From positions 1,809,601-1,873,600 of the forward strand of contig CM073322.1 of assembly GCA_037043015.1 (NCBI GenBank): a DNA stretch of 64,000 nt, written 5' to 3'. This stretch comes from Bryum argenteum (lineage: Eukaryota > Streptophyta > Bryopsida > Bryales > Bryaceae). Every line of letters begins with the position of its first letter. Within the stretch, counting starts at the first letter, position 1. A model generated the notes under the pieces. The model was not told where the DNA came from. It saw only the letters and a list, made by a program, of their open reading frames with translations, and made no database searches. Below are positions 32,101 to 64,000 of this stretch, one piece after another. The position numbers and the translations under genes are program-made.

Positions 32101-33639
32101 AGATTACCAAAGACTAAATTATATGACGTTAATTGTTGTAAAGAAAACTTTAAATCCAAACAAAAATTCTTAGATATTGGAATGAAGGATTCTTGTAATA
32201 TATTTAGAAAACAACCAATCAACATAAATTCAAGAGGAGAAAGTAACATCGATGAAAAAAAAATCACAAAATTAAATAAACCAATAAAAAATAACATGTT
32301 ACAGTTATTACCAATACCATCATTTGAACATTTTAATGTTAATGAAGATAACATGAATCAAAATATAACAAAAGATACACACAAAGTTAGTTGCTATGAG
32401 AAAATTGTCAATACTAAACAAAACTTCTCCGATGTCAATACAAATGCTTTTTTCAAAAAAACAACATGTATACCACATGGGAAAGGAGAAAAGGACAAAA
32501 ATTATAATGATTTATCAAAGTCAAATTCGAAACCAAGAGAAACCAACATGATACGGTTGTTGCCTACCTCGCCATTAGAAAAATGTAACATAAACGGAAA
32601 TAAGATGGAAGAATGCCTACCAAAATTTAAAAATAACTTTGATTGCTCTAAGGAAATTTTGAAATATAAACAGAAACTTAACCATGATGATGGATATACT
32701 TTTTGTAATAAACTAAGAAAGATATCATCTAATTCAAATGTAAAGGATGAAAATAATACTAAAAATAATTGTTTATCAAAACCAAATTCAATGTCCATAA
32801 ATAACGACCAGCTCCAACAACTACAAACATCATCATTAATAGATAATGCTACATATGTTGATACAACTAAACAAATCATACCAAAATTCAAGTACAATTG
32901 TAATTGGTGTAAGCATATTTTACATTCCAAAAAACATACTTATGAAGATAAAAACAACATGAAAAAACAAACATTTAAATTATGCGTAAATGGAAAGAGT
33001 GATACATATGAGTTTTGTTCATCAACACTTGATTCAAATCCAATTAAAGTTAGCATGTCACAATTATCTCCAACATCATCACTAGCAAATGATCATACTA
33101 ATGAAGATAACAAAACAAATAATAAACCCAAGGCTGCATATAGTTATGGTTGTTGCAAAAAAATTAGCATGTTACAATCATCTCCAACATCATATGTAGA
33201 AAACGGTCACACTAATGAACCAAAGATAAAAACTAATCAACCTACATTTATATATAGTTTTGGTTGTTGCAAAAAAGGATCTAATAATAAACAAGAGATT
33301 CATAGAGCTCCTAACGATGACTCTGCAATAAAATCATTTGACGACTCTACTCCATCAACCAAAAAACCACTTCCTTCAATAGTTGGAAGTGAAGGATCCC
33401 AATATAAAATTCCTCATAGATTTAATTGTATGGTTGAAGAAAAAGCAAGGAACTTGTCAATTGTGATAGATAATGATAGTAAATCAAGCAATGATGCTAA
33501 AGTTGTTGACAAAAATCCAAGTTTTATGGCATTGACTACAACATACTATTCCGAAATATCAGAGAAACTCAAAGAATCAATAAAGTATAATAAGAAACTT
33601 TTGTGTAGTAGAAGAATAACAGATTCAGTCAAGGAATGA
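29142..33639 (+). CDS. Large orphan protein, Asn/Lys/Ser-rich, with degenerate internal repeats
   Basis: Two very long open frames in AT-rich DNA, 29142-31582 and 31842-33639, join exactly in frame through a GTATAG...CATAG intron, giving about 1412 residues. Without splicing the first frame stops at 31709 after a hydrophobic tail. The N-terminal third is acidic (repeated short Asp/Glu/Tyr/Asn units such as NEYIVNNDINENCIDDNP). The middle is strongly basic with repeated SPKHCHGD/SPKHCHSD motifs and Lys-Ser-Lys runs, possibly nuclear or nucleic-acid-binding. The C-terminal exon carries five to six copies of a loose 45-60-residue unit: a Met-x-x-Leu-x-Pro-Thr-Ser start, Asn-rich spacer, then Pro-(Lys)-x-Tyr and Cys-Cys-Lys-Lys-like end (YSYGCCKK, YSFGCCKK, NCNWCKH). 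I recognise no family and no transposon domain. The length of open frame at this AT content argues for selection. Confidence 0.65.
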
Positions 33640-40039: not shown

Positions 40040-41420
40040 CTGCCACCACAATCACCTCCAGCAAAATCAGCTCCCTTATAATGATTCGCAGTACAACAAA
40101 AGGCTCTGCAATCTCCTAGGGTTCCGAAGGCTTCCCTTCCATCAATTACTCCATTTCAGTGCATCCTAAACCTGAAGTGCAGATCCTCTGACCTTCGAGA
40201 GCAAGTTTCAGCAACGCAAGACTTTTCGGAATTTACAAAAGCTACGATCACGCCGTGCGCTCATCTACACACTTGTCTAAAATCAGCTCCCTCAAACGCA
40301 GAGCGCTGCTAATTCGCATTACAAAGGCTTCGCATCCTTGTAGAGTTTGGAAACGTTGATTACTAAGGCTTCCCTAACATCGATTATTATTCCATTTTTC
40401 ATTCCCGACTAGTGCATCATAACCCTTATCCTCCGAAGCGCAGATCCTCCGAGCTCGAGAAAAAAGCAACGCACCTCTCTTCTCAATTCGGAGCACTACC
40501 GACAGCTTCGATTACGCCGTGCGCTCACCTAAAGTCGGCTCCCTCGCTACTAATTCGACTTTAAGAGCTTCGGACTCTCGTAGGGTTTCGGAAACGTAAG
40601 TTACTATGGCGTTCCTACTGTTACTTACTCCGATTTCTACTCCCGACTAGTGCATCATAATCCTATAATGTAAATCCTCTGAACACGAGAGTACGTTTCA
40701 CCATCGCACCTCGGCACTCACGTTTGCCTTAATTACTCCGTGCGCTCACCTAAAATGAGCTTCAGTGTCACTAATGCTCATTCAAGTGATCTAACAAAGG
40801 CTCCGCACTCTCGTAGAGTTTCGGAAGCGTGGGTCATCAAGGCTTCCCTTCCATCAATTGCACCATTCTCCTCTCGAGGCTAGTGCACCATTAACCTAAA
40901 ATGGCAAATCCTCTGAACTCGAGAGAAAGCTTCACCTCTTTTCCCAATTCGAAGCACTCACAGAAGCATTAATTACCTACAGACTCACCTAAAATCAGCT
41001 CCTTCATACTAATTCGCAATCCAAAAGGCTCTGCACTCTCGTAGGGCTTCGAAAAACTTTAGTTACCAAAGCCTGTCTAACATCAATTACGCCATCCACT
41101 ACTGCATCATAAATTTAAAATGGCAAGTACTCTAAACCCGAGAGAAAGCTTCACCTCTTTTCCCAATTCGAAGCACTTACAAAAGCTACAGACTCACGTC
41201 AAATCAGCTCCCTCAAACTAATTCGCAATCCAAAAGGCTCTGCACTCTCGTAGGGTTTCGAGACCAAGACTTCTCTACCATCGATAATCACAATTTTCGC
41301 TCCACGCTGTTGCATCATGCAATAAAATGAAGCTCGAGAGAAAGAATTAATTACTCACCACTTTCCTCGAGTCGGAGCACTCCCCGAAAAGCTCCAAAAG
41401 CGCCCGTGCGCTCACCGACA
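40040..41420. repeat. Tandem array of about six 210-240-bp units upstream of TFIIF-alpha
   Basis: A diverged unit recurs, recognisable by 'AAAGGCTCTGCACTCTCGTAGGG' (about 40098, 40323, 40565, 40796, 41030 and 41236). Each copy is followed by TTTCGGAAACG, 'aaggcttcccttccatcaattac', 'actagtgcatcataa' and 'gatcctctgaactcgagag'. Intervals of about 206-242 bases give the period. The first unit abuts the 5' UTR of TFIIF-alpha, so the array likely includes its promoter region. Every copy differs, so it is not recent. Confidence 0.8.
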
Positions 41421-45939: not shown

Positions 45940-46275
45940 TTAAGGTTCACACCTCTATTTGTTTAACAAGGAGTATTCAAGTCAAGGAGTTGAAGTATAA
46001 TGAACAATTTTGAACCAAGTGAATCCAATATTCCACGTATGAGGACAAGGCTTTGGGATTATTAAATAACGGATATTTAACTAATTATGGACAAATTCCG
46101 AACTTATGGATATTTTCACTAAAAACATAAGTATCAAAATGTATGGCAGATTAATAAATAATAGAAAACCAAGCAAGATATATTGAAAATCAAGCATTAT
46201 ATATTAAAAAGTGCATGTAAAACATAAAACTATCTAAATTATATCGGCCGAAGGCCAATACAACTAAAACCGCTA

Positions 46276-46380
46276 AACCCTGAATCCTAAACCCCAAACC
46301 CTAAACCCTAAACCCTAAACCCTAAACCCTAAACCCTAAACCCTAAACCCTAAAGACCCTGAACCCTAGACCCTAAACCC
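46276..46380. repeat. Interstitial telomeric repeat (CCCTAAA)n
   Basis: At least seven uninterrupted CCCTAAA units with degenerate units on both sides. The orientation (C-rich strand reading left to right) is that of a left chromosome end. It lies within 40 bases of the first palindrome-like word of the accessory element. Confidence 0.95.
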
Positions 46381-46612
46381 CGAACCTTAGACCGTAGAAT
46401 ACTGTTCCCGTCCCCAACCCACATTAGCTAAAATTCCGTATCGGACGGCCGCCGATAGAAACCCAAGGAATATGACGAAGTAGTAGTAACAATATCGAAC
46501 TCGAGAACAGAAAAGGAATCCAAAAGGTTGCACACTCATTCATACACGAGATCAATTCAATATGATTGAGAGGGATACATGGATACAAAGCCATGAACAG
46601 AGAAGTCCAACA

Positions 46613-46857
46613 TCGGCCGCCCGGTAGAAAAAGCGGAGTACATTAAAAGTGTACGAAACAATGATCGCTTCATTAAAGAGAGAGTAGGCTATAGTGTATC
46701 GGAAAGCCATAGGTAGCTAAGTCATATATCGGCCGCCAAAAATGGTAGAAAAGCGGAGTACATTAAAAGTGTACGAAACAATGATCGCTTCATTAAAGAG
46801 AGAGTAGGCTATAGTGTATCGAAAAGCCATAGGTAGCTAAGTCACATATCGGCCGCC
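46613..46857. repeat. Two-copy tandem duplication, about 118 bp, containing palindrome halves
   Basis: The unit TCGGCCGCC...GGTAGAAAAGCGGAGTAC...GGTAGCTAAGTCA-ATA occurs at 46613 and 46729, and its first bases recur at 46849. The copies are nearly identical, so the duplication is recent. Confidence 0.85.
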
Positions 46858-47113
46858 AGCCGAGAAACAGTAAACCATAGAGAAGGAGAAAGTACAACAA
46901 AGCAACCGATAGACGCTACAAACGTGAAAACGATGAATATACTCCAATCAACTGCCAAGGATAGGAATGCCGAAAACAAGAGTAAAGGAAAGAGCTGTAG
47001 CATATTCATAATGATGAGAATGCCGAAGCAGAAACACAACGGGTATGCACGGATTATAGACACTAATCGCAGTAGTGAGGTGAGTCGGAAAAGAACCAGC
47101 GGGTAGAGCGTGG

Positions 47114-47266
47114 TGTCGGCCGGCAGCCGATAGGAGGTCGGAGTTGCAGGTGGGAAAGCATATGAGATCAGTATCGGCCGGCAGCCGACAAGTGCAGAGC
47201 AGGTCCGTCATAGAGAGGGAGGATGCGAGGGAGGGTCACATGAAGCGTGTCGGCCGGAAGCCGATA
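47114..47266. repeat. Cluster of three 19-bp palindromes downstream of the transposase-like gene
   Basis: Copies at about 47114-47132 and 47172-47190, and an imperfect one at 47248-47266 (GGAAGCC centre), all immediately 3' of the minus-strand gene end at 47286. Confidence 0.85.
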
Positions 47267-47285
47267 CAAATGTATGATGAACAGC

Positions 47286-50200
47286 TTAGAGAACTGCTCC
47301 AGCGGCCTCAAGGTTAGACATTGCAGCTGCAGCGGCCTGCTCGGGAATGATATGTGTAGCTGGTGGACCCTTCTTTGCATGTGACGGCATCCTATGAGAG
47401 AACAGAACAATGTTGACATTAACAATCTGAGGAAGACAAGGCTCCTTATGCCAGCGGCGAGTCCAGCACTCCCTAGCGATGATCGCTTTTCCTTCCTTCT
47501 TAGCTCGCATAGGGGTCCACCATTCGATCTTGAAATTGCCATAGGTAGGACCAGGCGTTAGATCAACACACTCAAGGACACGCCCCAGCCAGACAGGAAG
47601 GAAATGGTCGTCGCTGGGGCGGCATAAGACGAAGTCGCCAAGAAGAACATCACGGAATGGATTAAAGTTGAGCCTCGGTCGGTCTTTAGCAGGACCACAG
47701 TAAGGATAAGCATCTGCATCATCCTCAGGCGTAATGTCCTGTGAGAAAGAAGAGCTAGATCCAGAATCTTGGGAGGCACGAGAATGATCACGAGTCCAGT
47801 CTGAAATAGGCCAAAATCCTTCTACGAGAACGTCAGGGGTAGACGGTAATGGTGAATTGATCTCTCGATTGATACGCTCCCAGTAACCAACAGGTCCAGC
47901 CATCTCCTCGCAGTATCGTCTGTTACGCGCCATACCGGACTTCCAAAACTCAATGAACTTAGATATGCCGTGCTTGATGAAACCCTGTTTGTCATTGCAC
48001 TCGGAGGCACGAGCTTGCTCCTTCACAGAGTTCAACTTGTTGGGGTTCACCTCCGTGACGCCCCATAACGGCTTAAATGGAATAGGACGTGGGTCGCCAG
48101 ATGGAATTCTAGTTCTTCCATGCTCGTCAGAAGTCCACATCTTGACGGGGGGACCGGGTGGGAGCCATGAAGAATCAGTGGATTTTCGCTTGTACCTCAT
48201 GACAGGCCAGCCGCGATCGTCACCGTCCTCTTCAACCCAGAACTTGAAAAGATGCATATCACCAAGTCCAACAATTTTGTTGACACCGTCGTGATGGAAG
48301 TCCTTGACGTAGGATTTGAAATCCGCAACCTCTTGAACGAATTCAGGAATGAAGGCGACTGTCTTCTGCGAGTCCATAAAGGCCTTCATGAGATCGCCTA
48401 GAACGTACGTGTTCTTCCGCTTGATGAGCTTGGATAGGTAACTGAAATGGGCATCAATATCCTCGTGAGTGTGGCCAACAATGAGGAACCCAACAAAACC
48501 TCCTTAAAAATGCGCCGAGCGGTCGTGAAGAAGCGAGAAGGCCATCACAAATCTGTTCTTATTGTCCTTCGCGGAATTATCAAGTTGCAGGAATAGCTTA
48601 CGAGGAAGCGGAACGAGCGGACGTCCAGGTTGTGAAGGACCAAATTGAGTTCCGGTGGCGGGTGGGATCGATCTGCGAAACACCGGACTTGCCATGTAGC
48701 AAAGCTTGGAAGAAGGCATTACGTGGAGGTGTGGGAAAGAGCTCCCGGGATTCACGTCACCGGTGGCTTCTCAAGCGCTCGCAGATCTGCGACACAAAGA
48801 TGAGATGGTGAAGTTGGAATCCCCGGCCGAGCGCGCGTGGAGTAGTGTGCGTACGCACCATCACCGTGGCCGTGCGTTAACATGCCGGTAACAGAAACCG
48901 GAATCTGCCCAAGGCCAGCAGTGGCTTTAGTAATCCTCTGCATTCTTGGAATGGCCGTCTTCGTGGTATCCATCTTGTCATGGATTATACATAGAAACTC
49001 GTAGGGGTTCTCGCAGATCAAACTCCGGCCACCATATATATGGCGGCGGCACGACGATATAATTGAGATGGCGATTCCGGTCATCGACTAATGACTGCCA
49101 TTCATCACAGCCCCTTGGGTACTTGGATATGCACTCCACAAGGAAGTCACACTCAGTACACTTCGAGAAGCTGCTCCCAACAGCTTTAACCTCGACATTC
49201 TTGAAATGGTTCTTCCGGGCGACGATGGTGGACCGAGAGACCGGCTTATGGTGGCACTTGACATTCACCGGGAAGGAGGAGATAAGGTAGGTCGTTATGA
49301 TCCAGTCGACGCCTCCTATCGGCCGGCAAAATGACAGAGAGTGCCCCGACATAAGCGAGAACTAATCGCTAACGGAGTATCGGGCCGGCAATCGGCGGCA
49401 GTAGCGAGCATTGACTAAATAAGGCATGAAGGAATCGATGAAGAAGCTAAAGTCAGTAAGATGTAATTGAAAACAATCGAAACATAACAACATAGTGTAT
49501 CGGCGGCCCGACATCGAGGACGAAGAGGAAATCGAAATGATTGGGACTTACTTTATTCACTTGCTCGCGCATGGTGTCCCGATTGAGCGCGATGGAACAA
49601 CCTTCGAGGTTGTCAACTCGCTTATTTCCAACAAGCCCGAACTCGTTAGGCATCCGTCCGCATTCTCGTCAATAATCTTCTGCAGGGTGGCTCTGGCCTG
49701 AATCGTATGCGGGCGTGGACGAACAGCTCCAGAATTGCCATGCGATCCGCTCACTGATCCACCCATCACTGCAGCCTTGTAGACGTGGTAAGCTGATCTG
49801 GAGACACCGTGAATGATATACCAAGCGTTCTCGCAGACCTCAAAATTCTCAAGCGTGATGAATTTCCTGCCTCCCGGTTCATGGACATGAAGTTGACTTT
49901 GAACGGCATACGCTGTCTCTCTTCTAATTTCAAAAGAGCAAGCATAGTACTTACGACGAAGGATTCGAGTAGACTCCCACGGAAACGTCTGACAGCACCT
50001 ACTCTTGCAGCACATCTGTGAACTAACCTTACGAATTTCATCATCCGAGGACTTCGACTTAAGCCTAGACCCAGCGGGCTGCTCCTTTGACAATAGTCTC
50101 CGACGAACGGATCTGTAGGGATTCCGAGGCACGCCCTGAAGTCCCGGATGATCGAAGGTGGAATTCTGAGCGGCCTCAGAGCAGAGCATGACAATGTCTG

Positions 50201-50452
50201 ACAGGAGTTGACCGCCTTCAAGTCGAGTCCGCGAAAGAGGCCATCTCATTGTCGTGAGCTGTAGGGTATCGTGCTCTGATATGAACATTACTCCGACATC
50301 TATATCGCCAAGAAGATCCTCATCGCAAGCTTCATCCGGAAGACAGACTTGAATGATCGCCTGCCCAAATAAGGTATGATCCTCGTTCGATGAAGTCGCA
50401 AAGACTTGTTCCTCCGGTCGGGCGATCAAGGACCGCCCGAGGTTCCGGTCTT
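47286..50452 (-). pseudogene. DUF7869-type putative DDE transposase, frameshifted
   Basis: From 5' to 3' on the minus strand, 50452-49557 encodes an N-terminal part with a Cys-pair region (SQMCCKSRCC), ENAWYIIHGVSRSAYHVYKA and TIQARATLQKIIDENADG. 49320-49060 gives FSKCTECDFLVECISKYP then RNRHLNYI. 49050-48752 gives FLCIIHDKMDTTKTAIPRM, VSVTGMLTHGHGDGAYAHY. 48640-48505 gives LFLQLDNSAKDNKNRFVMAF. 48500-47286 gives GFLIVGHTHEDIDAHFSYLS and a long C-terminal part with a BAH/Tudor-like block (LLGDFVLCRPSDDHF, WLGRVLECVD, FKIEWWTPM). HDKMD, QLDN and GHTHEDID are the conserved acidic motifs of DUF7869 proteins, which I believe to be transposase-like. Frame breaks near 49050, 48752, 48545 and 48500 disable it. 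The intron at about 49320-49560 carries palindrome variants. Confidence 0.75.
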
Positions 50453-50858
50453 AAATGTTCGATGCGCGCGTGAGAGACAGAGGGTCGAAAGTTGACAGCG
50501 CTGTCGGCGCCAGAACTATCCGAGGAGGGCTGCGAGAAAATACCGTTGTCAAACGGCGTAGCATGAAGATCACTAGCAGATTCATTCACTTGAGAGGAGA
50601 GGACATCGACGCGGGTTGGCGGATTCGTCCCGGACCCGCGATCGTCAGCCGCCCTCAAAATGAGAGACCGGTTGAATGATGCGGGTTACGAACTACCACA
50701 AAGATCTGTTGAGGGTGAGTCCTTAAGACCGACATCGCTTGGTTGGTTCAACCTTGACACTCCTCGGCGTGGGGTGTATCGGTTTGCCCGGCCGATAGAG
50801 TTGCCATTCACGGCGTAGCGTCAAGGGGACGAAGTTTGTAACCGCTCCAAAGGATTTC

Positions 50859-51488
50859 CTACCCAAGGCACTCACCAAGCAGAGTGAGAGAAGGATTCTC
50901 ACAGTAAGCTACAAGACCAACAAAGTCCTTATACACAGTAGTGAGCTTGACAATTGCAAAGAAGCTATGCGGGACGCGGAAACCCTCCCAGGTGCCCTTA
51001 GGCGAGCACTCAACGATGACGCCCACACCGACACAGTGATGATCGGTCCCATCAACATGCAATAGAGCAACCTCCATGTTAACAGAGAGAGTGAGGAACT
51101 GATTTATGGGCTTCTCATCTAATGCGCCCGGTGTCGGGTGGCAGCCGATATGCTCGGGTGACTCATCGAGGTTATCAACGAAGGGTCTCACGTCATTCAC
51201 GTCCCATGTAATGTTGTTACCAGGACACTGACTAAGAAACTTAACGCTAGGAGTGGGAAACGGAATGATCATCTCAATATTTGGAGCGACGTCAATAACA
51301 TGGACGTCCAAAAGAAATTGGCTTTCGCGAGATAATTCGGTTGATGGAAGCGGTACAGCGTAATAAAATTTTGCGAAAGACAGAGCGACAACTGCGCCCT
51401 TCTCTATACGCCATCTCCCGGATCCGCCGTTCTTGAGAAAGCTATCAATCGGTTCGGTTTCCAGCATGATGGAGCATGATCTCTTCAT
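50859..51488 (-). CDS. Unknown 209-residue protein of the accessory element
   Basis: An open frame from ATG 51488 to 50859 encodes a globular-looking acidic protein (WRIEKGAVVALSFAKFYYAV, FLLDVHVIDVAPNIEMIIPF, NMEVALLHVDGTDHHCVGVG, FFAIVKLTTVYKDFVGLVAY). It lies upstream of, and on the same strand as, the DUF7869-type gene, so it may be a separate gene or the N-terminal exon of the same transcript. A palindrome copy is inside the coding sequence at 51132-51150, translated as HIGCHPTP. The frame also extends upstream of the ATG through a 90-bp direct repeat (51500-51670), which I treat as untranslated. No family was recognised. Confidence 0.5.
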   Translation of the reverse strand: MKRSCSIMLETEPIDSFLKNGGSGRWRIEKGAVVALSFAKFYYAVPLPSTELSRESQFLLDVHVIDVAPNIEMIIPFPTPSVKFLSQCPGNNITWDVNDVRPFVDNLDESPEHIGCHPTPGALDEKPINQFLTLSVNMEVALLHVDGTDHHCVGVGVIVECSPKGTWEGFRVPHSFFAIVKLTTVYKDFVGLVAYCENPSLTLLGECLG

Positions 51489-51499
51489 TGATCTATCGG

Positions 51500-51693
51500 T
51501 CGCCGGCCCGACACACATTGCGAATCTAAAAGGTTGAGGAGACGTAGGAAATAATGAGACAAATTGCAATAGACACAACCACCGAGGTATCGGCCGGCCC
51601 GACACAATTGCGAATCTAAAAGGTTGAGGAGACGTAGGAAATAATGAGACAAACGGAGACACAACCACCGAGGGTATCGGCCGCCGGCCGACA
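51500..51693. repeat. Direct repeat (about 90-95 bp) separated by palindromes
   Basis: TTGCGAATCTAAAAGGTTGA through GAAATAATGAGACAAA occurs at about 51518 and again at 51608. Each copy is flanked by palindrome variants (about 51498, 51590 and 51675-51693). It lies just 5' of the 209-residue gene. Confidence 0.85.
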
Positions 51694-51699
51694 CCTTGA

Positions 51700-52837
51700 T
51701 CTGGCTCGCGGGAGACAGACAATGACGCAGACGAGATAGTTCTATATCGGTGGCGGCAATGATATGAGGAGATCCGACCGAGTCCTACGGAATCGTATCG
51801 GTGGCGACATTCACAATGTCGATCGGCGTCTAATACCAGGGTATTGAGCCTCTAGCTATTAAATCGTGCAAATTGAAGTAATAAAAGGCTGCTATCTACC
51901 GCTCTATATATAGAAAGAAGCGCACTAACACGAGGAACACAATGACGCAATTCTTGACTATTTCTGGCCAGGGAAAACTACAAAAACAGTAGAGCAAATC
52001 GCTCAGAGCGTCAGGAAACACGGGAGAAATAAAATAAAATGTCGAAAACTTGATTGGGAATGGATAGCCATCGAGAGACGACGAGCGTGGATGGCGCTCA
52101 AATCAAGAAGATTTCAAAATCAAATTTCAAATGATTTTGAATTTTTGGAGGGCTAATTGCAAGGCAGGATGAAAAGCATGATGAAATGGATGAAGAAATT
52201 CGAAATGACGTTTTGGCGGCGCGAGCTTCAGAAAGTTTTGGCGGTCGGGCAAGCGGATTCGAGAGCGGGCAAGCCGATTGAAAAGCGGGCAAGGCGCAAA
52301 TCGGCGGGCAAGCCGATTGAAAAGCGGGCAAGGCGCAAATCGGCGGGCAGCCGATAGCCATCATTGCGAAAATTCCGGAGGGGGTAAACCGTTCACCCTC
52401 CCTAATTTGCTCTCATTTGTAATTTGCTCTCCTCTCTCACTTCTGCGCTCTCCTCTCACTTTTGCTCTCTCCACACTTTTGCATTTCCTCTCTTCTGTTT
52501 CTCTCCTCTCATTCGCTACGCGCTCTCTCCTCCTCTCATTCGCTACGCGCTGCCTCATCTCTTCTTCCTTGCTGTTTCTCTCCTCTCTGCTTTCATGCTC
52601 TCACCTTTCCTCTCTGCTTTCTTGCCTTAGCCGTTTTCTGCTGGCAGCTGTTGGTTTAGTTTTAGGGTTTAGGGTTTCAAGCAGCAGCCGACATTTCTTA
52701 CGCTCCAGCCGACAGCCCTGCGCGGGAGCGGAGGCAGCAGCCGACATTCCTTACGCATCAGCCGACAGCTTTGCGCGGGAGGGGAGGCAATCTACGCACC
52801 AGCCGACACCGAGCACTCGCCAGCCGATACAGCTGCG
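51700..52837. promoter_or_regulatory. Divergent intergenic/promoter region of the accessory element
   Basis: This region separates minus-strand genes (left) from plus-strand genes (right). 52225-52360 holds a two-copy repeat with AAGCCGATTGAAAAGCGGGC. 52390-52650 is a 260-base pyrimidine-rich tract (CTCTCCTCTCAC, TTCTCTCC), typical of a plant core promoter or 5' UTR. 52675-52830 holds about six half-palindromes (CAGCCGACA or CAGCCGATA) spaced 20-60 bases just before the ATG at 52838. Open frames in the CT tract are compositional. Confidence 0.5.
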
Positions 52838-55800
52838 ATGGCGTCGTCGAAGAGGTAGGTCGACTCAGCTCTTTTGTGACGTTTCAGTTTGCGCCGTTTC
52901 GACTGGCGTCGTTTCATTTTGAGCTTTTCGTCATCTTCTTGTGCCTTGTGTGTCGGCTGGCAGCCGATAGCCTGTGAGCTGTCGGCTGCCAGCCGATAGC
53001 CTGTAAGCTGTCGGCTGCCAGCCGATAGCTCGTGAGCCTTCGGCTAGCAGCTGATAGCTCACAAGCTATCGGCTGGCAGCCGACAGCTCGAGTGATGTTT
53101 TATCTTAGAATACAGTGCTTAGTGTGTCGGCTGGCAGCCGATAGCTATCAGGCTATAGCCTGTTCTCTTGTAAATCATAGTTTACTCGCAGACCGTTAGT
53201 GGCTCCTCTGCCTTAGCGCTACATTGCTTAGTGTATCGGCTGGCAGCCAATAGCATGCTATTTGCTGAAGGTCATTAGACTATCATCGTAACTATTGCAG
53301 TGTCGCGATGTATATTTTTGCATTGTCGCTATCGGCTGGCAGCCGATATGGTACTCTTTTACTGATATACAATAATGTGCGTGTGCTAATATACCCTCAC
53401 ATGTGTTTATTCTGCAGAAAACCACCAGCCCTAGCTAGACTGCTTGGTGTGGAACTTGCACACACGGATGTCAAGCATGGAGACATAGTCCCGCGTGCAG
53501 TATGGGCAGGTAATCCCATCATCCAGCAGTGGGGACTATGCTGGAGAGTCCTCCCCAGCCAGCGAATCGAGATTGCTTGCTCGTACCTCTACAAGGGTAA
53601 TATGATCCCTGGGTACGGGGATGTGCTCGAAATTTTGGAGAATGTGGAGCACGTCGACATTCTCATCAGCCTACCTACCCTGAGAGATCCCTCTGCCCCG
53701 ACCGAGTACATCGCCGTATCAATGCCGTGGAGACAATGCACTGAGGCGGTTTGCGGTGAGCCGGCGAATAAGCAGGGCATGACCTTCAATGGAGCTGCGC
53801 CTGCTACCATCGAGGAGTTCATGGAGGCCTGGTCTGCTATCGACTACGCTAGGTTGGTCAGAACACCGCCATCGATCTTTGCGGCGGCTGAGGCTCCGTC
53901 GTCGTCGAAGAGGAAGCCCACTCCTTCAAAGAAGAAGCGACCTGCAGCAGACATGATCGATGTAGGCGATGACGCCGATGAAGACGTCACGAAGTCACAA
54001 GATCCAAGCAAGCCCAAGAGACGGGCAAAATCGACTAAGGATGCCATCGAGTATACCTTGGACGAGGCCCTGTCAAAGGGCAACCAAATGACCTCGAAGA
54101 TGAAGGACGTCGAGATCGACGCAATCTACAAGGCTTTGGAGACTGGTCTTGGTCATCTCTTCCCCTACAAGAAGCGGAGGCTGCCGGGGGTTATTCCTAG
54201 CGAGAAGCTTCACATCGCTCCGGACGAGCTCAAGTACAGACGCATCGCGAAAGATCGTCTGGGCCAGGTATTTTGATTCTCTCACCTGATCTTACGAGGT
54301 TCTGCTCTGTGTATCGGCTGCCAGCCGATACATCCTCTGATCATATCTGATTCATGATTATTCATTTGTTATGTTCTTCGCAGGTGAAGGCCATCTACAA
54401 GGGCTACGGGGCGATCCGGAAGAAGCCTGAGATCCATGGTATCCCGCTTAAGCGGGAACCACTTGAAACCGATACCGGGATGATGGCTGTTATGGATTTT
54501 ATGCCAGGGGAGTTGGAAATGTGGAAGCTCAACGACACCGACCCCGACACCGCCCCCAAAGTCCCCTGGTGGCAACACCCTACCGTCCACTGGTATATTA
54601 TCGGTGGTCAGCATACAGTGACAGCCTGCCGCCAGTTGGCGGACGAGTACCCCGAGGGATCGGATGCCAAGAAGGAGCTTCTCGAATTCGAGATCATCCC
54701 TGTGTTCTCAAGGGACCCCATCGATCTTGTGAGGGTGTCAAACGCCCTTAATCTCAATATCGCAGAGAAGGTCGCCAAAGAGAACTTCCGATCGTGCGCG
54801 GAACTCGGGAGGGCGGCATGGAAGCGTCTCGGGAGCCCCGAGCCACACAAGGGAGGCGGGAAGCCGTCGCCGGCCTTCGAGGTATGGTTACCTTCTGCAT
54901 TTTCTATCGGCCGGCAGCCGACACATTTCTTTAATCCAGAGCTATCGGCTGCCAGCCGACAGCTCTTCATTTTGCTTTCATACAACTAATGGTTTATGGA
55001 TGTTCATCAGGCTGCGAAGGCGCAAGTCATGGCGCACTTCGTGAACGAGAAGGTGTCCACGAAGCTCCCTTTAGTATTCGTGGGTGACAAGGCCTGGAAT
55101 ACTTGGATTGAGGTCTTCAATGCCTGGGAAGCAGGTGAACTCATTGGCGACGACGGGAAGGAGCCGGGGCTGATCAAGCGGACGCCAATCTCGAACATCA
55201 CGAAGACTGACCTTGTACCCACACTCGGTCTTCGTGACTGCGACCTTGAAGAGCTTGCAGCGGAGGTGATCGCAAATCGTGTCTGCATCAAGGCCAACAG
55301 CAGGACGAAGGACAGACTCACACTGCCGGATTGGTGCCGCGACAAGAAGCTCGACCGGGTTATTATGAACGAGCTTATGTATCAGATAAAGAAGCATCCG
55401 CTTCCCTGCAAGGATGCGAACTGGACGCCGTACCTTGACTCGGAGTGGGACAAGTTGGCGAAGGAGCATCATTTCACCCCGAGTGTCGTTCGCAACATCT
55501 GGACGGACCTGAAGAAATTCACCGATGGGAATGAATGGCTCAATGGACGCGCCAGCGCAATGAATCCGACGACTGACAAGTCGAAGAACGGTGTTGCGCC
55601 GCCCATTTTCAGCACCATCCTGCAATCGTATGCGCAGGTCGAGGTTAGGACGGAGGAGGTCGATGCCGAGAAGGCGCATTTCGAGTGCAAATTCGCGGAC
55701 ACAGTTGCAGAAGTCTTGCACGTGATTGACGCAGCTGTTGGCCATGAGGGAATTGCTAAGGACCCACTCCTAATCGTTTACTTCGGGTACAGTCATGGCG

Positions 55801-57247
55801 GAGTCTCAGTTCCAACCAGTAGGTCGGAGCTTCGTGCGCTTGCAGAACGGTCGAAGGTTCCATTCACGGATGAGAACCTCACGATGGACGACGACGACGT
55901 CACTCCGACTCGGCCTCTGTATCCTATCCCGATGTTGTTCATCACGAGCGCGAAGCAACGGGATCTTCTCTGTGCTGTCTGGACAACCGAAGATACGGAG
56001 TGGTATGTCCAGACGGTCTATTATAAGCCGTGTCTTCGTGGAGGGTTCAAGAAGTCGGTGACGGAATCTTCCCCGCTCGTTACGCTCAACATGACGTACC
56101 CAAAGGTACGCGGGGATGTTGATCATTGGACTACTTTCAGGAAGTATACTGGAATCGCCAAGCCAGTCGATTGGTTCCAGGCATCTCCTGAAAGTGCTGT
56201 CGATTGGAACGGGGGGTTCTGCGGTGTCGACCATGACACGCTCGAGAAGTTGCTGAAGCCAACTCTCACCGCGAAGAAGGTCACCGTCATCAACGTCTGG
56301 GGTGGCGGAAACGTCACCGAGCTTGGATTGGTAAGGCATCCTCTCCTTTGCTTTGTATCGGCTGCCAGCCGACACCTCCTAATACTTGTCTGTTTCTCCT
56401 TGTTCGGTTCTCTTCTGTCTCTTACTCTTGTTCATGGTCTTGCAAAGAAATGGGAGGTCCGTGATCGAGTTCGTCAGAACTCAGGACCATGTCAAGCTGG
56501 CAGTCCAACGTGCGAAGGGACTCAACTTGGATAGGGTCGAGCTTCCACCGTCGTCTTCCGAGGATATGGAGACCGACGCTGGTCCCTCAGTCTCGTCTCG
56601 CGAGCCTGCCAACCCTGGACGACGTCCCGCCTCTGGTGTTAGGATTCAGGAAGTGCTGGATGAGATTGACCTTACTCCTTTGTCACTCACACCTGCAACC
56701 ACGCCGACGGCTCCACCTGAATCCACTGCTACACTTATCCCTTCTCCTGTATCGGCTGCCGACCGACACATTGTAACAGTGTCAGCTCTGCCTCCTGATA
56801 CTACAGCAGATCTGCCTGTATGTGCTGCGACCACGATGCAGGTTGATTTGCACAACGCCCCGGAGGAAGAGGTTATTGTCGTGGAGCAGGTTCCTCCGTC
56901 CCGTGCCCGTCAGAGTCCTTCCCAATCAGTTCCTGCCCTTATCGGCCGGCAGCCGACATCTCCCGCTCCTTCATGTAGGGAAGGTCAGAGGGCTCACTCG
57001 GCAGTGCAGGCCTTCTATACACGAAGGGATGTTGCTGTTGAATCGGCGGCTCTTTTGGAGGACGACGCTAACGACATCAGCGCAACAAATGAGGACGCTC
57101 TCCAGGAGGACGACGTGTATGACATCAGCGCCCAAAACGAGGCGGCCCTAGTAGACGACAATGAGTTCGCCATCGACGCCCCGAATGAGGCTCTGTCTCC
57201 ACCTGCGGCGGATCATGCTTCCCCGCAGCATCAACAATTACATGAAG
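52838..57247 (+). CDS. ParB/sulfiredoxin-like domain protein with beta-class DNA methyltransferase-like region (putatively damaged)
   Basis: Exons 52838-52854, 53418-54267, 54384-54881, 55011-56330 and about 56446-57247 give roughly 1160 residues. Residues 6-170 are a unique N-terminal region; 175-215 are a Lys/Arg- and Ser-rich, NLS-like linker (SSSKRKPTPSKKKR). The ParB/Srx-like fold spans about 265-420: IPSEKLHIAPDELKYRRIAK, then HWYIIGGQHTVTACRQLA (GGQHT near 363), then VSNALNLNIAEKVAKENF. 456-895 contain a long domain with DPLLIVYFGYSHGGV and, near 881, VINVWGGGNVTELGL followed by NGRSVIEFVRTQDHV, resembling the late-placed motif I of beta-class N4/N6 methyltransferases. The rest is a Pro/Thr/Ser- and Asp-rich tail with direct repeats (DDxxDISAxNE). 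Exons 1-4 splice in phase. Exon 5 lacks an in-phase AG acceptor (CAAAGA at 56443-56448), a probable mutation. Introns carry the palindromes. Confidence 0.65.
52951..53252. repeat. Palindrome cluster in intron 1 of the ParB-like gene
   Basis: Copies at 52951-52969, 52980-52998, 53009-53027, about 53039 (degenerate), 53067-53085, 53125-53143 and 53234-53252. The first four are spaced a regular 29 bases apart. All keep the 9-1-9 inverted structure or a one-base variant. Confidence 0.95.
53330..53348. repeat. Palindrome copy, end of intron 1
   Basis: A perfect TATCGGCTGGCAGCCGATA, 69 bases before exon 2. Confidence 0.95.
54312..54330. repeat. Palindrome copy in intron 2 of the ParB-like gene
   Basis: TATCGGCTGCCAGCCGATA, perfect arms with the centre base changed. 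The only landmark of this 116-base intron. Confidence 0.95.
54905..54961. repeat. Two palindrome copies in intron 3 of the ParB-like gene
   Basis: Copies at 54905-54923 (CGGCCGGCAGCCG centre) and 54943-54961, 38 bases apart, in a 129-base intron. Confidence 0.95.
56356..56374. repeat. Palindrome copy in intron 4 of the ParB-like gene
   Basis: TATCGGCTGCCAGCCGACA, 26 bases after the exon 4 donor. Confidence 0.95.
56750..56958. repeat. Two palindrome copies inside coding exon 5
   Basis: Copies at 56750-56768 (read as VSAADRH) and 56940-56958 (read as IGRQPT), in the low-complexity tail, without breaking the frame. Confidence 0.9.
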
Positions 57248-57384
57248 GTTTGTCCTAGACGACGGCGTTTCTTGTATATAGTCTCTTCTCACCATTGCAT
57301 ACGCATTTTAGGTTCTAGTCTGCATATGGTATTAGAATCTCCTGGTTGCAATGTGCTCGGCCAGGTCCTTCCCCTGTAATACTG

Positions 57385-57403
57385 TATCGGCTGCCAGCCG
57401 ACT
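57385..57403. repeat. Palindrome copy between exon 5 and the HAD region
   Basis: TATCGGCTGCCAGCCGACT, one arm base changed, in the probable intron 57248-57659. Confidence 0.9.
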
Positions 57404-57659
57404 CCCTATTATCGTTTCACGTTTCCGCCTGTATTCCTTGTCTCCGATGTCGATTTCTCTCAACAGTGTTTTTCGGCATATCGGTTTTGCCAAAATGACA
57501 AGTCTTCATGTCTTTTCTTTGCACTATTCTTCTCCCTTCTTCATCATGGTGTTTGATGTTATTGGTTTCCATCACCACCTCTGACGCTCGTGGCTCACTT
57601 TGTTGTTTAATTCTTGCTTGCTCTTTTGCTTATTGTACATATGCCCTAATCTCTTGCAG

Positions 57660-58390
57660 TCGGTGAATCGAGAACGAGGAGTTCGTGGGCTCCGCTTCTC
57701 ATGGATCGCGGCCGGGCACCTCCATATCGACTCCTCTCGTATCCGGAGGCGGGTAGCCAAATAAAATATTTTATTCTTTTCGACGTGAATGGCACTCTCA
57801 TTCACTACGTTCGTCGTAGGATCATTAAAGGTGGTGAACGTCCCGGTGGCGGAAGGAGGAGGCAAGGGCAAGACCTGCCCTTCACTCGGTGCTACGATTT
57901 TGCGTCGATCAGATCGGCAAATTTGTTTCTCGGTCTTGGTCACTCAAGAACCTTACTCCGAGGATCGAATTTATTCGCTCTGTTTTCCAAGGCTCCCTAG
58001 GAACATCTTGGAGTTTGATCGAGATATTGCTTCCGGAGTTGCTACCGGGAGCCTCATAATCCTGACCGCCCTTCTTTATTAAGTCGATTGATCATCTTCT
58101 TGATATGAGTCCTGAACTCAAGGCTCGTGGTGCTAATCCCGAGAACATGCTTCTCATCGACGACTCCCCCTACAAGAACGTTTTGAACAATCCTTACAAT
58201 GCGTTCCACCCTCACACCGTATCTTTGACCTCGGAATGAATGTGAGTGGCGGCCTTACTTTCAGAGGGTTCTGCAGCCTCTGTTATACGCCCTCTATAAT
58301 TCTCAGAAAAATGTTCCTGAGTTTATGCTTCAGCACGCAAGGTTAGGGAAGCGCCGTATGCTCCCGGAAATCCATTGTCTGAGCAATGAC
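57660..58390 (+). pseudogene. FCP1/NIF-type HAD phosphatase region, copy 1 (frameshifted), possibly C-terminal domain of the ParB-like gene
   Basis: A CTCTTGCAG acceptor at about 57659 continues in phase with a donor after 57247 (GAAG|GTTTGT), so this may be the C-terminal part of the ParB-like protein. The first block carries KYFILFDVNGTLIHYV, the HAD motif I D-x-N-G-T. After frame changes, 58084-58240 gives IDHLLDMSPELKARG then NMLLIDDSPYKNVLNNPYNA, the late HAD motif with paired Asp. 58260-58390 gives LQPLLYALYNSQKNVPEFML, the typical C-terminal helix. The middle (RPGV and VxLW blocks) is unreadable. FCP1/NIF HADs dephosphorylate proteins such as the Pol II CTD; activity here is unlikely. 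Confidence 0.65.
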
Positions 58391-58995
58391 AGACGCTTGA
58401 TTTTGGTCAAGTGAGGGAGTGATCATGGATTGATTACTTCTCGACCTTGGCGTTTGAGTTGTTCAAGATGGTGGAGCAAGTTCAAGATGCTCCAGTTGTC
58501 GGCTGCCGGCCGATATACCTCTTGTTACCCTACATAGATTACCATATGAATACATGTCCTTAGCATGGGTGTATAGATTTTTCAGTCATCCAATTCGATG
58601 ATCTAGCGAGCTAGAATTTGTAGATCACTTAGATTTTCTTCTAGTTCTGTAAATTTTCCAGGGTTCCACTCGAGACTTTTTCTTAACTGTATATTTCGAG
58701 GATGTTTAATTTGTGAAGACTCTCTTAATCTTAACGTGGAGAGTTTTCTATCATATTCCCTTTCTTGGTATCGGTTCTTATGTTTGGTATTTTCTTTTGT
58801 TTTCCTTTTTGCTTTAGGATCCATGGCTTCTTCTTGTCATTGTCTCCTTGTCGTCTTTACTCATTGACTCTCTTGTTTGTTTTCTTCTATGTTAATTTTG
58901 GTTTTGTCTCCTTGTCGGCTGCCGGCCGATATGCCTGCCCTTATCAATCTATTGCTGTCTATTGCGTTTCTATTCATCATTCTGACTTATTACAG
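58391..58995. other. Intergenic/intron DNA with two palindromes
   Basis: Palindrome copies at 58497-58515 and 58913-58931 flank a T-rich stretch without a supported gene. The open frames at 58765 and 58877 are hydrophobic compositional frames. Confidence 0.5.
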
Positions 58996-59167
58996 GCTTG
59001 TATTGTTCAGGGTGACTGCCGTTTGGATTATGACATTGCTGGTACTTCTACCTCCAAGAAATGTATCATTCTATCCGTATCTGGATTGCTATGCTACATC
59101 AGCCCTAATATTCCGACGGATCGTTGGAATGCTCACCGTAATGTAATCAAGCGACCAGGTGTAACGA

Positions 59168-59172
59168 AGTTG
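59168..59172. repeat. Left 5-bp target site duplication (GAAGT)
   Basis: GAAGT ends the left HAD part. The identical GAAGT at 62604-62608 begins the right part. Removing the insertion and one copy restores the HAD reading order. Confidence 0.85.
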
Positions 59173-62100
59173 TCGGATGCCATGTATTCACTTTATCTTC
59201 CCTTACACGTTTATTGGTGTAAAACCCGTGTTCAGGTGACTCGTGTATCGTTCCAGGGATTCTGTGAAGTGACCAAGACAAGTAGTGCTAGAACACCCAA
59301 ACCCACAAACGTTTCCTAGTCCCAACTTATGTTTTAGCCTTGCAGGGCAAGGGTATCCCTTTGCAAGAGGGGATGCACAAAGACTCTTTCCCTTATGTTT
59401 ATCGTGGCGGAAACTTCCACACTTAAACTCTACACACACACACACATACTAAGGCACACATTACGTCCTCACAACTAATCCGTCCTATCCGTCCGAACTA
59501 GCGGTCGCGCAGCCGTCCCCCTGGTTACCCTATCACCCTTACTACAATGACAGACTCCAAGAGCTCCGAATCCGGCTAGAAGACGCCTACACGTATTCTG
59601 GTCACGTCATCGCGCTTAATCCGTCCTCTTCCGAGACTACAGAGGAACCCAAGTCTCAGTGGGTACTGGAGGCCGGATTGGAATCCGTCCTCACACACTG
59701 TACTCCCGTAACCTTCCAGGACCGTAAGTCTTTACCACGTAGTTTTCCTCTCTCGACGCCTGCACCAGTTCAAGACACAAGGCACTCGGAATACGCCCAA
59801 CCCGACTTCAACTCCACGAAACGATCTAACAAGGAATCCGGATTCCTAACTCCCAACTTATAACACACATAGTAGATCCGGCTTTCCAAGCACTCAACCG
59901 AAAAGGAGACAGGAAATGATCACACCAAATATGCGCATAAGAAGGTTTGATTAACACTCAAGCAAGGAATGTTTTAGGTGGCCAAACTTCCACCTATAAG
60001 TACTTCTAAGTCAACGACTTAGATCCCTAATCTGGATTGCGGCGCCGCCCTACTGCAGCCTACTCCTCAAAAAAGCGGCACGCATTCCCAAAAAGAAAAC
60101 ACTATATCGCCTAGGTCGGATACCAATCCGGCCTCCTAACCCCTGGCCGTCCCGCGACCGTCCTCTAAGACGTCCTACCTCTTCCTTCGCGAACTAACTC
60201 CGTGCTTGGCCGCTTGATGGCGTCGCCGCGATACGTCCCGCTTCACTCTCTTGCCCGTATCGGTTATCACGTACTCGTCCTCGCTGAGTTAGTCTCGTCC
60301 CCGCGCTCTTCAACTCTTCCTCTTCGGAATGCTCGAGGCCGAGGTCGTGTAGCTTCGCGCTCCGGGACTTCTCGTACTCCTCGGCCGTGAGCTTCTTCTT
60401 TGTCTTTGCGCGTATTCTTGGCCGGGCGAGTCTGCGGCGGGCGGGTGCATCCGACTCGTCTTCACCTTCGCCTTGCCCTTCGGGTCGGTCGGTCGGACCG
60501 ACGCCCCCAAGATCCGTCCTTCTTTGTATCCGCCGCGAGTCTTGGCCGAGTAGAAGTGAAGGCCGGCATCACTACCTCCTTCATCTCGCTCTCGGACGGC
60601 GTCGAGCAAGACCTTGACCTCGGCGTTGCTCTTCTCTACTTTCGTAGCGTACGTCTTCGCCGCCAAGAGGAACTTCTTGAATGTCTCCGCCTTGAAAACC
60701 TCCGACTCCAAAATTCGGCCTCGAACAAGTTCGCCCTCTGCAAAGACCTCGGCCGGAACCTCGCAGATTTCTACGAGCTTCACGACCTGCTCGTTTGCCG
60801 TGATTACGGCCTGCCTTCCGACCAGGAGTTCCTCCTCCCTTCTCCTGACCGTCTCGCGAAGCCGTCTATTCTCCAGGACCAGCTTGGTCACTTGCTTCTC
60901 CATTTGTCGAAATTGCTCCGCGTCCGGCTTGAATCCCACTTCGCCTTGACCTCCAGCAACGTCTTCACTCCAAATTCTTGGCATAGCTTCGCCAGCATTT
61001 CTTCGTAGAGGAAGTACTGGCACCTGGCTTCCGTGAAGTGGTGCCATGCTCGCCTCATGGGATCCGGGTGATTGGCGGACGGACTGAGAAGTGGGGGAAG
61101 TCGGGGGTCGTTCGGATTCATGGGGTTCTCCCAATCGGCCGTAACTTCCCCTTCATCTACCGGCCTCGGTGGCCTCCTCTCGATCGAGTTCGGCCTCGGT
61201 CGGATTCGTGGGAGGGGACGGGGACGGAAGGATGATTACCTCTGGACGCGCTCGTGGTGGGGTTGCCTCCGGAGCCGGCTCTTCTGGTGCGTCGGGTGGA
61301 ACGTCCCCTTCATCTGATCCGACCTCGTCCTCCTCCTCATCCGAGTACACGGCCTTGCTATCCGTACTCTCCTCCGATTCGAATACGCCGTTGTTTTGCG
61401 ACGACAGCGCGATCTCATAGTTCGACTCCTCCTCATCCGTCAGCACCTCCTCCTTCTTGTACAGGTGGTAAAGAAAAGGAGTAATAGGGCTAGGACGGGT
61501 TTTACCTCGTTCTCCATGGCCGGGCGACCAAGTCGCGGATGATCATCCCCAAACCCGTCTCTCGTTCGCCACGCAAGGAACCCGGGACGGTGTTGGCGGC
61601 CGTCACGGTGATGCGGTGCGGCTTCTCCCGTGAATAATCGGCGCCAAGAACTTGATGACGGCGCGCTCCCTCGGTTCTTACAATCTTCTATTGAGTAGCC
61701 GTTGTGCTTGTGCGGATCTCCGTGGAACGCCTTCTTCGCCCACTTGTGTTTCCGGCCGCACAACCCTACTCCGTTGTTTACGGTCGGGCCGTAAACAGCT
61801 CTCCGTTTCGGCCGTCCGGGAAGCCGGCTTTCCTCTAACCGTCCCCTCGAATCGGTTTGGCGCGCCGACCTTGATCTCGCGCACCATCTCCGCGTCGCGC
61901 AAACCCCTGTGGGCGTATCCAAGCAGCCGGCTAATCCCATCCTCTCGAGATCTTCCGTCAAGACTTCTTCTCGTCCTCCTCGATCGGAATGCATGGTGAC
62001 ACGAGCTTGATGGAGATCTTCAGCTCCTCCTGCTCCTGAGCGGAAGTGGAAGCCGTCCCGGCCATCGGAAAGAAGTGCGCAAGGAAATAGAGTGTCGCCG

Positions 62101-62603
62101 GGCTAAGGTCGGCCAATGGGGGCGGATCGCGGCTAAGGACGGAAAATGAAAGACGGAGGGGGGCGCAAGACGACAAGGGGCGCAGAAAACGAGGAGGCAG
62201 GTGACGACAAGGGCGGACGGGTTGCCTTATATCGAGGGGGCCGGAGTTAAGTCCGACCATCATGACATGGTCCGCCGCCATCATTGTACTTCCCCGTACG
62301 GGGCCGCCTTCTAGATTTCTCGCCATTTATTTTATTCTTCGCCACTCCGTCCTTTACCTACCATCATAACTCCTAATCCGTCCTCTGACAGCACGTCCTA
62401 GCCGTACGGGGACAGAGTACGGATTGGTTAATCCGTCCTACTTAACAGAAACTAGATTTTAGCTAAGTCCTTTATTTGTAAAAACGTAATTGCCTTATAG
62501 TATACGGCTTAACAAATACATAGGTCGGATTCTAAACACTATACTTATTCTTAATGCGCATTAGAACATAATGGCCAAAAATCGAAAAAAACGGGGTCCG
62601 ACA
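59173..62603 (-). mobile_element. Nested 3.43-kb TG...CA insertion (LTR-type signature, no LTRs found)
   Basis: It begins TGTCGGATGCC and ends GGGGTCCGACA, so the ends are TG...CA and also form an 8-base imperfect inverted repeat, flanked by GAAGT on both sides. A 5-bp duplication with TG...CA ends is the mark of LTR retroelements, but I see no long direct repeat between the two termini. Coding text is on the minus strand (about 62065-60310), and the segment is rich in 'CCGTCC' words near both ends. Alternatives are a non-autonomous LARD/TRIM-like element with diverged LTRs, or a TIR element with 5-bp duplication. Confidence 0.65.
60310..62065 (-). pseudogene. Gag-like coiled-coil protein of the nested element, frameshifted
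   Basis: On the minus strand it starts with an acid-rich leader (MAGTASTSAQEQEELKISIK, ATG at 62065). After frame breaks come an acidic spacer at 61446-61153 (SDEEEDEVGSDEGDVPP), RRAWHHFTEARCQYFLYEEM at about 61050, and a clean coiled coil (FRQMEKQVTKLVLENRRLRE, TVRRREEELLVGRQ, AETFKKFLLAAKTYATKVEK). It ends in a basic Ser/Arg tail at 60310. The layout resembles Gag-like or 'plant mobile' structural proteins, but I see no zinc knuckle, protease, polymerase or integrase. Shifts between frames near 60950, 61150, 61440 and 61960 suggest it is not intact. The plus-strand frames over the same bases are antisense shadows. Confidence 0.5.
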
Positions 62604-62608
62604 GAAGT
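62604..62608. repeat. Right 5-bp target site duplication (GAAGT)
   Basis: Partner of 59168-59172. Confidence 0.85.
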
Positions 62609-63018
62609 TGTTTGCCATGTTGTTGGAGCGCTTCCATGTTGGTCTTTGGTGTACGATGCCGATGCGTGACTTGAAGCCTCTTCTATCTTACATTCTACCT
62701 TCTGGCGTCATCGACAGGCTATCCTTTGTTTATGGTAGAGAATTTTGTGATCGTCCTATGAATTTTCCGTGGTGTTACAAGCTCTTGAAGACTCTCTATT
62801 GCAAGCGTCGTTCCCGTGAGGTGTGCAGTTCCCGACCAGCCTTCTCTCGTTGATGTTTCTCCCTGGCATTAAGGTTGGCGCCGGATTCTGCCTGCTACAT
62901 GCCTTATCCTTTTCGAGGTGATTTGTCGTCTTCAAGTACTACTATTCCCAATGTAGCTACAGATATTCTTCCGTTCATCTACCCCTTATACCGATTCGAA
63001 TCATTAGTCAATATATGA

Positions 63019-64000
63019 GTCTTTCTAATAGACCCGGTCAACTTCATTATGAAGTTGCTCATTCCCTCAAGTACGGTGTTCCTCTCAGATCGCACTGTTC
63101 CTAGGTTTTACTTAGTCTGCATGCCTGTCGGCTGCGAGCCGACACTTCACGCGATCAGCCGGTGGAGCACAACCTGCGATGAGTCGGTCAGCACTCGCAC
63201 TCGTCGACTTATCGCTGTTGGTCTTCAAATCGAGATTTTCCCGGGATTAATATCCTGGATTGTTGAAGATGGAGCGCCAGAAAGGAGGAAGTTGATGATG
63301 GAGTCGCGTTGCTACTTATCGGCTGCGAGCCGACACCGCTGCAGTTCACCTATGTTAAACTTCTGTCTGCTTCGATACCTAGTGTTGTTGTATATTATAT
63401 AGGGTGTTGTAATATTTATTGATACGAAGTTAGTGCTGTCGGCTGCGCGCCGATACCACATGCTAGTGGGACGAGCTTCGTTTGGAATATTCGCTTATTC
63501 TTTTAATGAAACGGATTTGTTTCCTAACTCCAAGAGTGTTATCATCTATATTTTCTCCGACTTGCTAATAATGTCAATCATTCTCATTCTCTACCTTGCC
63601 TTGTTTTGCTCCTTCGAGGTGTGTCGGATGGGAGCCGATTGATTTCTGGACTGTCAAATTGTCCAGAATTAGTTAAATACCCGTTAAATAGAGTATGTAG
63701 GAGGATGGTAGCCGCTTACAAACCCTCAATTGGGTCAAGGATTTGTGAGTTACACCCATTTGAAGGTAGTCTATCTTTGCCTTGAAGTGACTCAAAATAC
63801 AACATGGTCATGCATTTTTGCCTTGTTTTCAAGTTGAATACAATTTGCAAAAGTCGGATACACTTATATGTAGAATTTTTGTCAAAATAGGGGTAACTCC
63901 AACTCCTTGACTCAAATACTCGTCGTTAACATGAAAGGCACACAAGAAGGAATTCCCTCTAGTGCCTCTACTTTTAAGAATACACTTTCACTTATTAAAT
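63019..64000. other. Right end of the accessory element and flanking AT-rich DNA
   Basis: Open frames at 63049 and 63433 run through palindromes and show no family signal. Palindromes stop at about 63640, after which the DNA returns to AT-rich intergenic sequence with no supported gene. Confidence 0.4.
63126..63455. repeat. Three palindrome copies with a GCGAGC or GCGCGC centre
   Basis: Copies at 63126-63144, 63317-63335 and 63437-63455, plus a degenerate one at about 63621-63639 (TGTCGGATGGGAGCCGATT). Two of the three share a CTGCGAG centre unlike those further left, so local copies are related. Confidence 0.9.

Follow-up and report, generated by a model that had tools for sequence, protein, structure and literature searches.

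Sequence-specific self-recognition by transposons is, to our knowledge, known from few cases. CACTA elements have CACTA termini, and in En/Spm the TnpA protein uses clustered binding motifs in transposition and demethylation. For the Arabidopsis VANDAL elements, VANC targets are reported to be tandem arrays, located in introns and in upstream regions, that vary from copy to copy (PMC5735166), and VANC6 motifs differ from VANC21 motifs (PMC5735166; PMC10398659). In bacteria, Bce_0392 is a ParB-methylase in which a ParB domain is joined to an adenine-methylase-type domain (PMC5512222). Here we describe a transposon in a 64,000-nucleotide stretch of the Bryum argenteum genome (258.8 Mb, 25 contigs; the stretch, C2:1809601-1873600, is hereafter the window). 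It carries a gene for a ParB/Srx-like protein and a DUF7869 gene. On balance, sequence comparison favors reading it as a terminal-inverted-repeat DNA transposon with a self-addressing pair: a ParB/Srx-fold protein and the tens of palindromes that it, or a complex containing it, would recognize.

The element and VANC/VANDAL are alike in having an element-encoded protein, accumulated short motifs, copy-variable arrays, and motifs that differ between related elements. Their parts differ: VANDAL has DUF1985/DUF287 proteins and the VANA transposase, whereas the present element has a ParB/Srx plus methyltransferase-like protein, DUF7869, and palindromic sites. Pfam recognized neither a DUF1985-type VANC nor a Mutator-type transposase in the frames scanned, and found DUF7869 instead. 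Demethylation has been shown for VANC; for our element the counterpart is a set of CpG observed/expected ratios (1.04 in the element vs. 0.77 and 0.78 in two other stretches), which fit low methylation but have other explanations as well. The system would work in a VANC-like way without membership of that family, and its ParB-like fold is without the ParB nucleotide motif. From CACTA/En-Spm it is set apart by termini that read AACGG and not CACTA, by a 4-bp target duplication, and by sites throughout the element. Bce_0392 is alike in its joined domains; the protein here has no DPPY-type motif, no sequence relationship between the two was found, and palindromes are absent from the part of the Bce_0392 account consulted. 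Bce_0392 suggests a source for the architecture of the element's protein. Among the papers listed in literature searches of Creative Commons-licensed full texts, none dealt with ParB domains carried by DNA transposons of eukaryotes.

Palindrome classes and ParB-like lineages

In the window, TATCGGCTGGCAGCCGATA at ≤3 mismatches gave 48 strand-hits at 27 distinct sites, all in 46439-63455, against 0.01 sites expected from 100 dinucleotide shuffles. A degenerate consensus of the same palindrome, TRTCGGCYGSCRGCCGAYA, gave 30 sites at ≤4 mismatches, in 46242-63640. If the protein reads the palindrome, then distant relatives are expected to carry a different palindrome, and this expectation is the basis of our class test. 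We fetched divergent ParB relatives from the genome and listed their inverted repeats without the window's sequence. Loci L034-L053, L066-L069, L081, and L082 were read blind to the window, and a consensus was then written for each class and counted.

Five classes were obtained: A, TRTCGGCYGSCRGCCGAYA; B, ATSGGKCGATCGMCCSAT; C, TTATCCCCGNNNCGGGGATAA; D, GATAGGAATATATTCCTATC; and F, TATCGTCGNNNCGACGATA. The palindromes are 17-21 bp long and have a common half-site frame with outer AT, the centre being odd in A, C, and F and even in B and D. At ≤2 mismatches, each of 44 loci (L081 and L082 are not in this count) carried one class (3-27 sites) and zero sites of the other four. On a ParB tree of 26 of the 44 loci, from which 18 near-copies of family A were omitted, the five classes take four changes, which is the minimum, and 0 of 200 shuffles were as low; the tree has long branches at L053 (decayed), L046, and L067. 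Class C is not one clade, as F is nested inside it, and F shares the C half-site except for two bases. Class D groups with B, and support in the C/F and B/D region is moderate (79-89). L081 and L082, whose lineage is ~50% identical to F, retain the F palindrome. Because the classes are exclusive, fit the tree, and persist in relatives, the protein and the palindrome behave as a cognate pair, from which we infer direct binding.

Genomic distribution of the palindromes

An earlier note on this DNA had placed the palindromes in the transposon block only. Within the window this stood, with none of the 27 sites elsewhere; genome-wide it did not, since the degenerate class-A consensus matches 1360 sites. 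The corresponding counts are 321 for B, 661 for C (with a stricter pattern), and 127 for F, and the reversed-pattern controls gave 0 each. The note's further expectation, that the palindromes track ParB-like genes, was borne out among the sites listed on contig C1, which cover 100 of 256 exact A sites, 50 of 321 B sites, 50 of 661 C sites, and 50 of 127 F sites. Among these, 95/100 A sites lie <15 kb from a family-A ParB exon (3.0 expected), as do 43/50 B, 41/50 C, and 38/50 F sites with respect to genes of their own class, and 0 of 1000 circular shifts matched any own-class value. The gene lists hold the best candidates, with D left out of B and with F including the ~50%-identical lineage; an earlier run with shorter gene lists gave 27/50 for B and 16/50 for F. 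As a side observation, many of the listed matches to these elements fall on C1, which makes up 44 Mb of the 258.8-Mb genome, and one may speculate that it is repeat-rich or a sex chromosome.

Conservation of the sites

In introns 2-4 of 20 family-A copies, fixed palindrome positions vary in 23/1101 cells and degenerate positions in 16/395, whereas the rest of these introns varies in 264/3514 cells, a rate 3.6-fold above that of the fixed positions (Fisher P = 1e-12 for fixed positions vs. the rest, in copies related by descent). Variation at codon positions 1 and 2 is 4.7% and 4.4%, respectively.

Peptides derived from the palindrome occur in 14/49 retrieved proteins (reversed 0, shuffles 0.1); the search expression was drawn up with some of these proteins already in view. 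Thirteen of the 14 proteins, from metagenome relatives 43-70% identical to the window, have the peptide outside the conserved core; the peptide of P0029 was set aside, its match being inside the core. The peptides sit where translation reads into presumed introns, and in P0010 also in the last exon. At the class-C locus L039 (3-2078, minus strand), the palindromes fall within a long frame that follows the ParB exon, and there they yield the peptides NYPRAGDN, DYPLPGDN, DYPRAGDN, DYPRLGDN, and NYARPGDN, four of the five at sites listed beforehand. Either coding DNA has retained the site here or the peptide repeat itself matters.

Predicted fold of the ParB-like protein

The earlier note had located GGQHT near residue 363 and assigned the region to a ParB/Srx-like domain. 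Splicing of the exons does place the motif at residue 363. The prediction of a ParB fold comes from a model of the class-B relative P0046 and not of the window's own core. GERRxRA is the nucleotide motif of ParB partition proteins, and in the place of GERR the sequences read have GGQHT, GGQHC, DGQHS, or NGQHS. The catalytic Cys of sulfiredoxin sits in GGCHR, and its position is occupied by Gln in the window and in the aligned relatives. After the ParB/Srx part, models predict a methyltransferase-like fold resembling amino-methyltransferases, whose catalytic motif is of the DPPY type. That motif is absent from 16/16 sequences, some of them partial, and the domain is probably non-catalytic and a binding or scaffold part.

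Membership of the bacterial ParB partition family, with which the earlier note had drawn a parallel, is not supported. The element's protein differs from bacterial ParB-parS, Noc, and KorB in having GGQHT and not GERR, in being encoded by a eukaryotic transposon, and in its extra domains, with the methyltransferase-like domain following the ParB-like part; no ParA was recognized among the Pfam matches of the scanned exon-level frames. Pfam and PHROGs recognized neither the ParB nor the methyltransferase part, and a profile search of PDB sequences returned nothing for query A2 and one chance match for query A1. Short peptide patterns found no relatives in viral and prokaryote genome contigs, a search of viral contigs for two spaced A palindromes came back empty, and Rfam gave no match at gathering scores.

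Proposed mechanism and alternatives

As each old lineage has its own palindrome, the protein would act on own-lineage copies only. It would bind the dispersed palindromes, whose symmetry makes a dimer probable, and such binding would cover control regions, introns, and both ends, so that chromatin or transcription may be kept permissive in the manner of VANC. Our leading reading, drawn from the likeness to VANC, is that the protein marks or shields own copies or counters their silencing; roles in transposition or as an operator system compete with it. In its fullest form, the system would be a eukaryotic ParB-parS-like form of addressing, with at least five mutually exclusive protein-palindrome pairs in one genome, whose proteins mark own copies and keep them open to both transcription and transposition; this we put forward tentatively, giving it somewhat less than even weight. 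An unrelated bacterial-type fold then appears to do self-recognition, with five natural specificities and 127-1360 sites for each of the four classes counted. It would allow a direct experiment on the joint change in specificity of a DNA-binding protein and its site. Anti-silencing of the VANC kind may have been invented twice, and the pairs could supply orthogonal combinations of protein and operator.

A number of results weigh against self-addressing by the ParB-like protein. When all 12 scored palindromes are taken, among them those of the intron-1 array, in which the number of units changes, the contrast is weak, with 9.9% variation vs. 12.6% (exon 2 being taken two bases too long). The peptide is missing from 35/49 proteins, many of which lack intron read-through and five of which are class-B relatives. 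Off-class contacts on C1 range from 0 to 7; the highest counts are 7/50 for B sites near C genes (equalled or exceeded in 41 of 1000 shifts), 7/50 for F near C (95 of 1000), and 7/100 for A near F (158 of 1000). Clusters with no own-class gene detected, among those listed, number 4/32 for A (all single sites), 4/14 for B, 3/8 for C, and 8/18 for F. Class D is one locus on a single long branch, and the class-C locus L043 has three A-like sites at 4 mismatches. The evidence for the fold is moderate: the best Foldseek E is 5.7e-3, with none <1e-3, and the exon-4 model has a predicted local distance difference test score (pLDDT) of 58.6. Finally, co-divergence cannot alone place the sites with ParB, because ParB is accompanied by the DUF7869 gene in family A and in part of B/D.

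This last point bears most directly on a reading that we consider unlikely, though the least so of the alternatives, in which DUF7869 as the transposase, or a helper complex of the TnpA kind, binds the palindromes for synapsis or cutting, and the ParB-like protein is that helper or does something else. Palindrome clusters do lie near both ends (46242-47266 and 63126-63640). In a sample of 54 of 150 family-A ParB hits, 31 of 95 B/D hits, and 96 of 110 DUF7869 hits, a DUF7869 hit was found <25 kb away for 47/54 A hits, 46/54 being head to head (2.0 pairs expected), and for 12/31 B/D hits, 11/31 being head to head, so that both proteins could co-evolve with the sites. However, about two-thirds of the window's palindromes lie in the element's interior, where introns and the space between the genes hold dense arrays, and no DUF7869 hit was assigned to a class-C element, which keeps ParB and palindromes (a weak point, as the list holds the best candidates). 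In the window, as in class-B and class-C loci, the ParB gene has dense arrays close to its 5' end. These would suit operators through which the ParB-like protein or a host factor mainly regulates transcription of the divergent gene pair. A host factor would not explain five lineage-specific classes, and sites also occur in late introns, in the 3' region, and at both ends; we regard an operator function as doubtful.

Still less probable is partition or nuclear retention, in which ParB-style loading at the palindromes would hold extrachromosomal or replicating copies. A ParB-like fold and clustered palindromes are what such a function would use, but the motif is not GERR, no ParA was recognized in the frames scanned, and the copies are integrated with 4-bp duplications. 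The earlier note had also raised the prospect of a small mobile palindrome that colonized the element independently, with which similar sites at many places and the variable intron-1 copy number agree. Lineage class exclusivity, the low variation at fixed positions, and the 95/100 listed exact sites near family-A genes disfavor it, and we consider it very improbable.

Structure of the element

The whole transposon copy spans 46068-63685 (17.6 kb), its ends being set by other copies: 31 of 39 left ends elsewhere begin at 46066-46068 of the window, and 38 of 39 right ends finish at 63685-63690. The earlier note had taken the block to be a transposon bounded by 46241-63655; terminal inverted repeats and a target duplication bear out the transposon, and the bounds are slightly wider. 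The left terminal inverted repeat, AACGGATATTTAACTAATTATGGACAAATT (46068-46097, plus strand), and the right one, AACGGGTATTTAACTAATTCTGGACAATTT when read inward (63656-63685, minus strand), were obtained from the inverted-repeat listing and copy comparison. Both termini read AACGG[AG]TATTTAACTAATT..., i.e., the terminal inverted repeats that characterize such DNA transposons. They are flanked by the target duplication AAAT (46064-46067 and 63686-63689), from the reading of copies at both ends. An exact 4-bp duplication was found in 12/12 copies, namely the window copy and 11 others, each of these with another duplicated sequence; a 6-bp duplication (TAAATA) was dropped after the 11-copy comparison gave 4 bp. 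Eight of the 11 other copies are 13.9-15.8 kb and three are 28-32 kb. A 34-nt inverted repeat (85%) flanks the element outside (45963-45996 and 63896-63929) and was ruled out as its ends, as other copies begin at ~46068 and end at ~63685. With the element subtracted its arms span ~345 bp, so this is probably a small inverted-repeat host element that was the transposon's target.

A telomere-type AAACCCT array of ~16 units lies just inside the left end (46267-46380, plus strand), and AAACCCT recurs 5-11 times in each left-end locus of the 11 further copies (L055-L065). Such repeats, like the introns, point to a plant or green alga. The left cluster (46242-47266) has six class-A palindromes, starting at 46242, 46439, 46847, 47114, 47172, and 47248. 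Three more are in 51132-52356 (51132, 51675, and 52338), eight in intron 1 (52951-53348), partly in a 29-bp tandem array (52951-53090), one in intron 2 (54312-54330), two in intron 3 (54905 and 54943; 54905-54961), and one in intron 4 (56356-56374). Five occupy 56750-58931, of which those at 56750 and 56940 are in the presumed last exon and those at 57385, 58497, and 58913 are downstream; the right cluster (63126-63640) has four, at 63126, 63317, 63437, and 63622. The location mostly in introns, untranslated regions, and intergenic gaps, as first described, needs qualifying: at least two sites (56750 and 56940) are in the presumed last exon, and 51132 is in an open frame of the DUF7869 gene. 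Tandem palindrome units are 29 bp in the window, 30 bp in L034 (class B), and 61 bp in L039 (class C).

The stretch 58932-63125 has zero palindrome sites, and a later insertion probably lies within it. Inside this stretch, 59453-62560 is higher in GC, has long frames (e.g., 60310-61152 and 61440-62102, minus strand), and is probably a nested insertion; a Pfam scan of its frames gave no match.

The ParB-like gene (plus strand) and the DUF7869 gene (minus strand) are divergent and head to head. The former probably has five exons: a presumed exon 1 (52838-52854), drawn from splice sites and open frame; a presumed exon 2 with the N-terminal part and a basic linker (53418-54267); exon 3 with most of the ParB/Srx-like core, including GGQHT (54384-54881); exon 4 with a helical part and the methyltransferase-like domain at about residues 220-440 of the exon (55011-56330); and a presumed low-complexity last exon (56449-57258), for which the window copy offers no canonical acceptor that preserves the frame, so that its start is uncertain. 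The DUF7869 gene (47286-50450) comprises 47286-48503, 48504-48770, 48978-49361, and 49557-50450, with provisional exon borders, and a further minus-strand frame at 50859-51851 may be its first exon. The Pfam DUF7869 match falls only in 47286-48503 (E = 2.2e-14) and 48504-48770 (E = 1.1e-7). DUF7869 is a Pfam domain of unknown function; the protein may be the transposase. DUF7869 was named in no paper found by the literature search. A frame at 57700-58480 with FILFDVNGTLIHYVRR looks by eye like a HAD/FCP1-type phosphatase, and Pfam gave no match to it.

Elsewhere in the window, two plus-strand open frames of 860 and 602 amino acids occupy 29127-33639, with no Pfam match, and diverged direct repeats spaced ~200-250 bp apart (families D8, D10, and D11) occupy 40063-41294.

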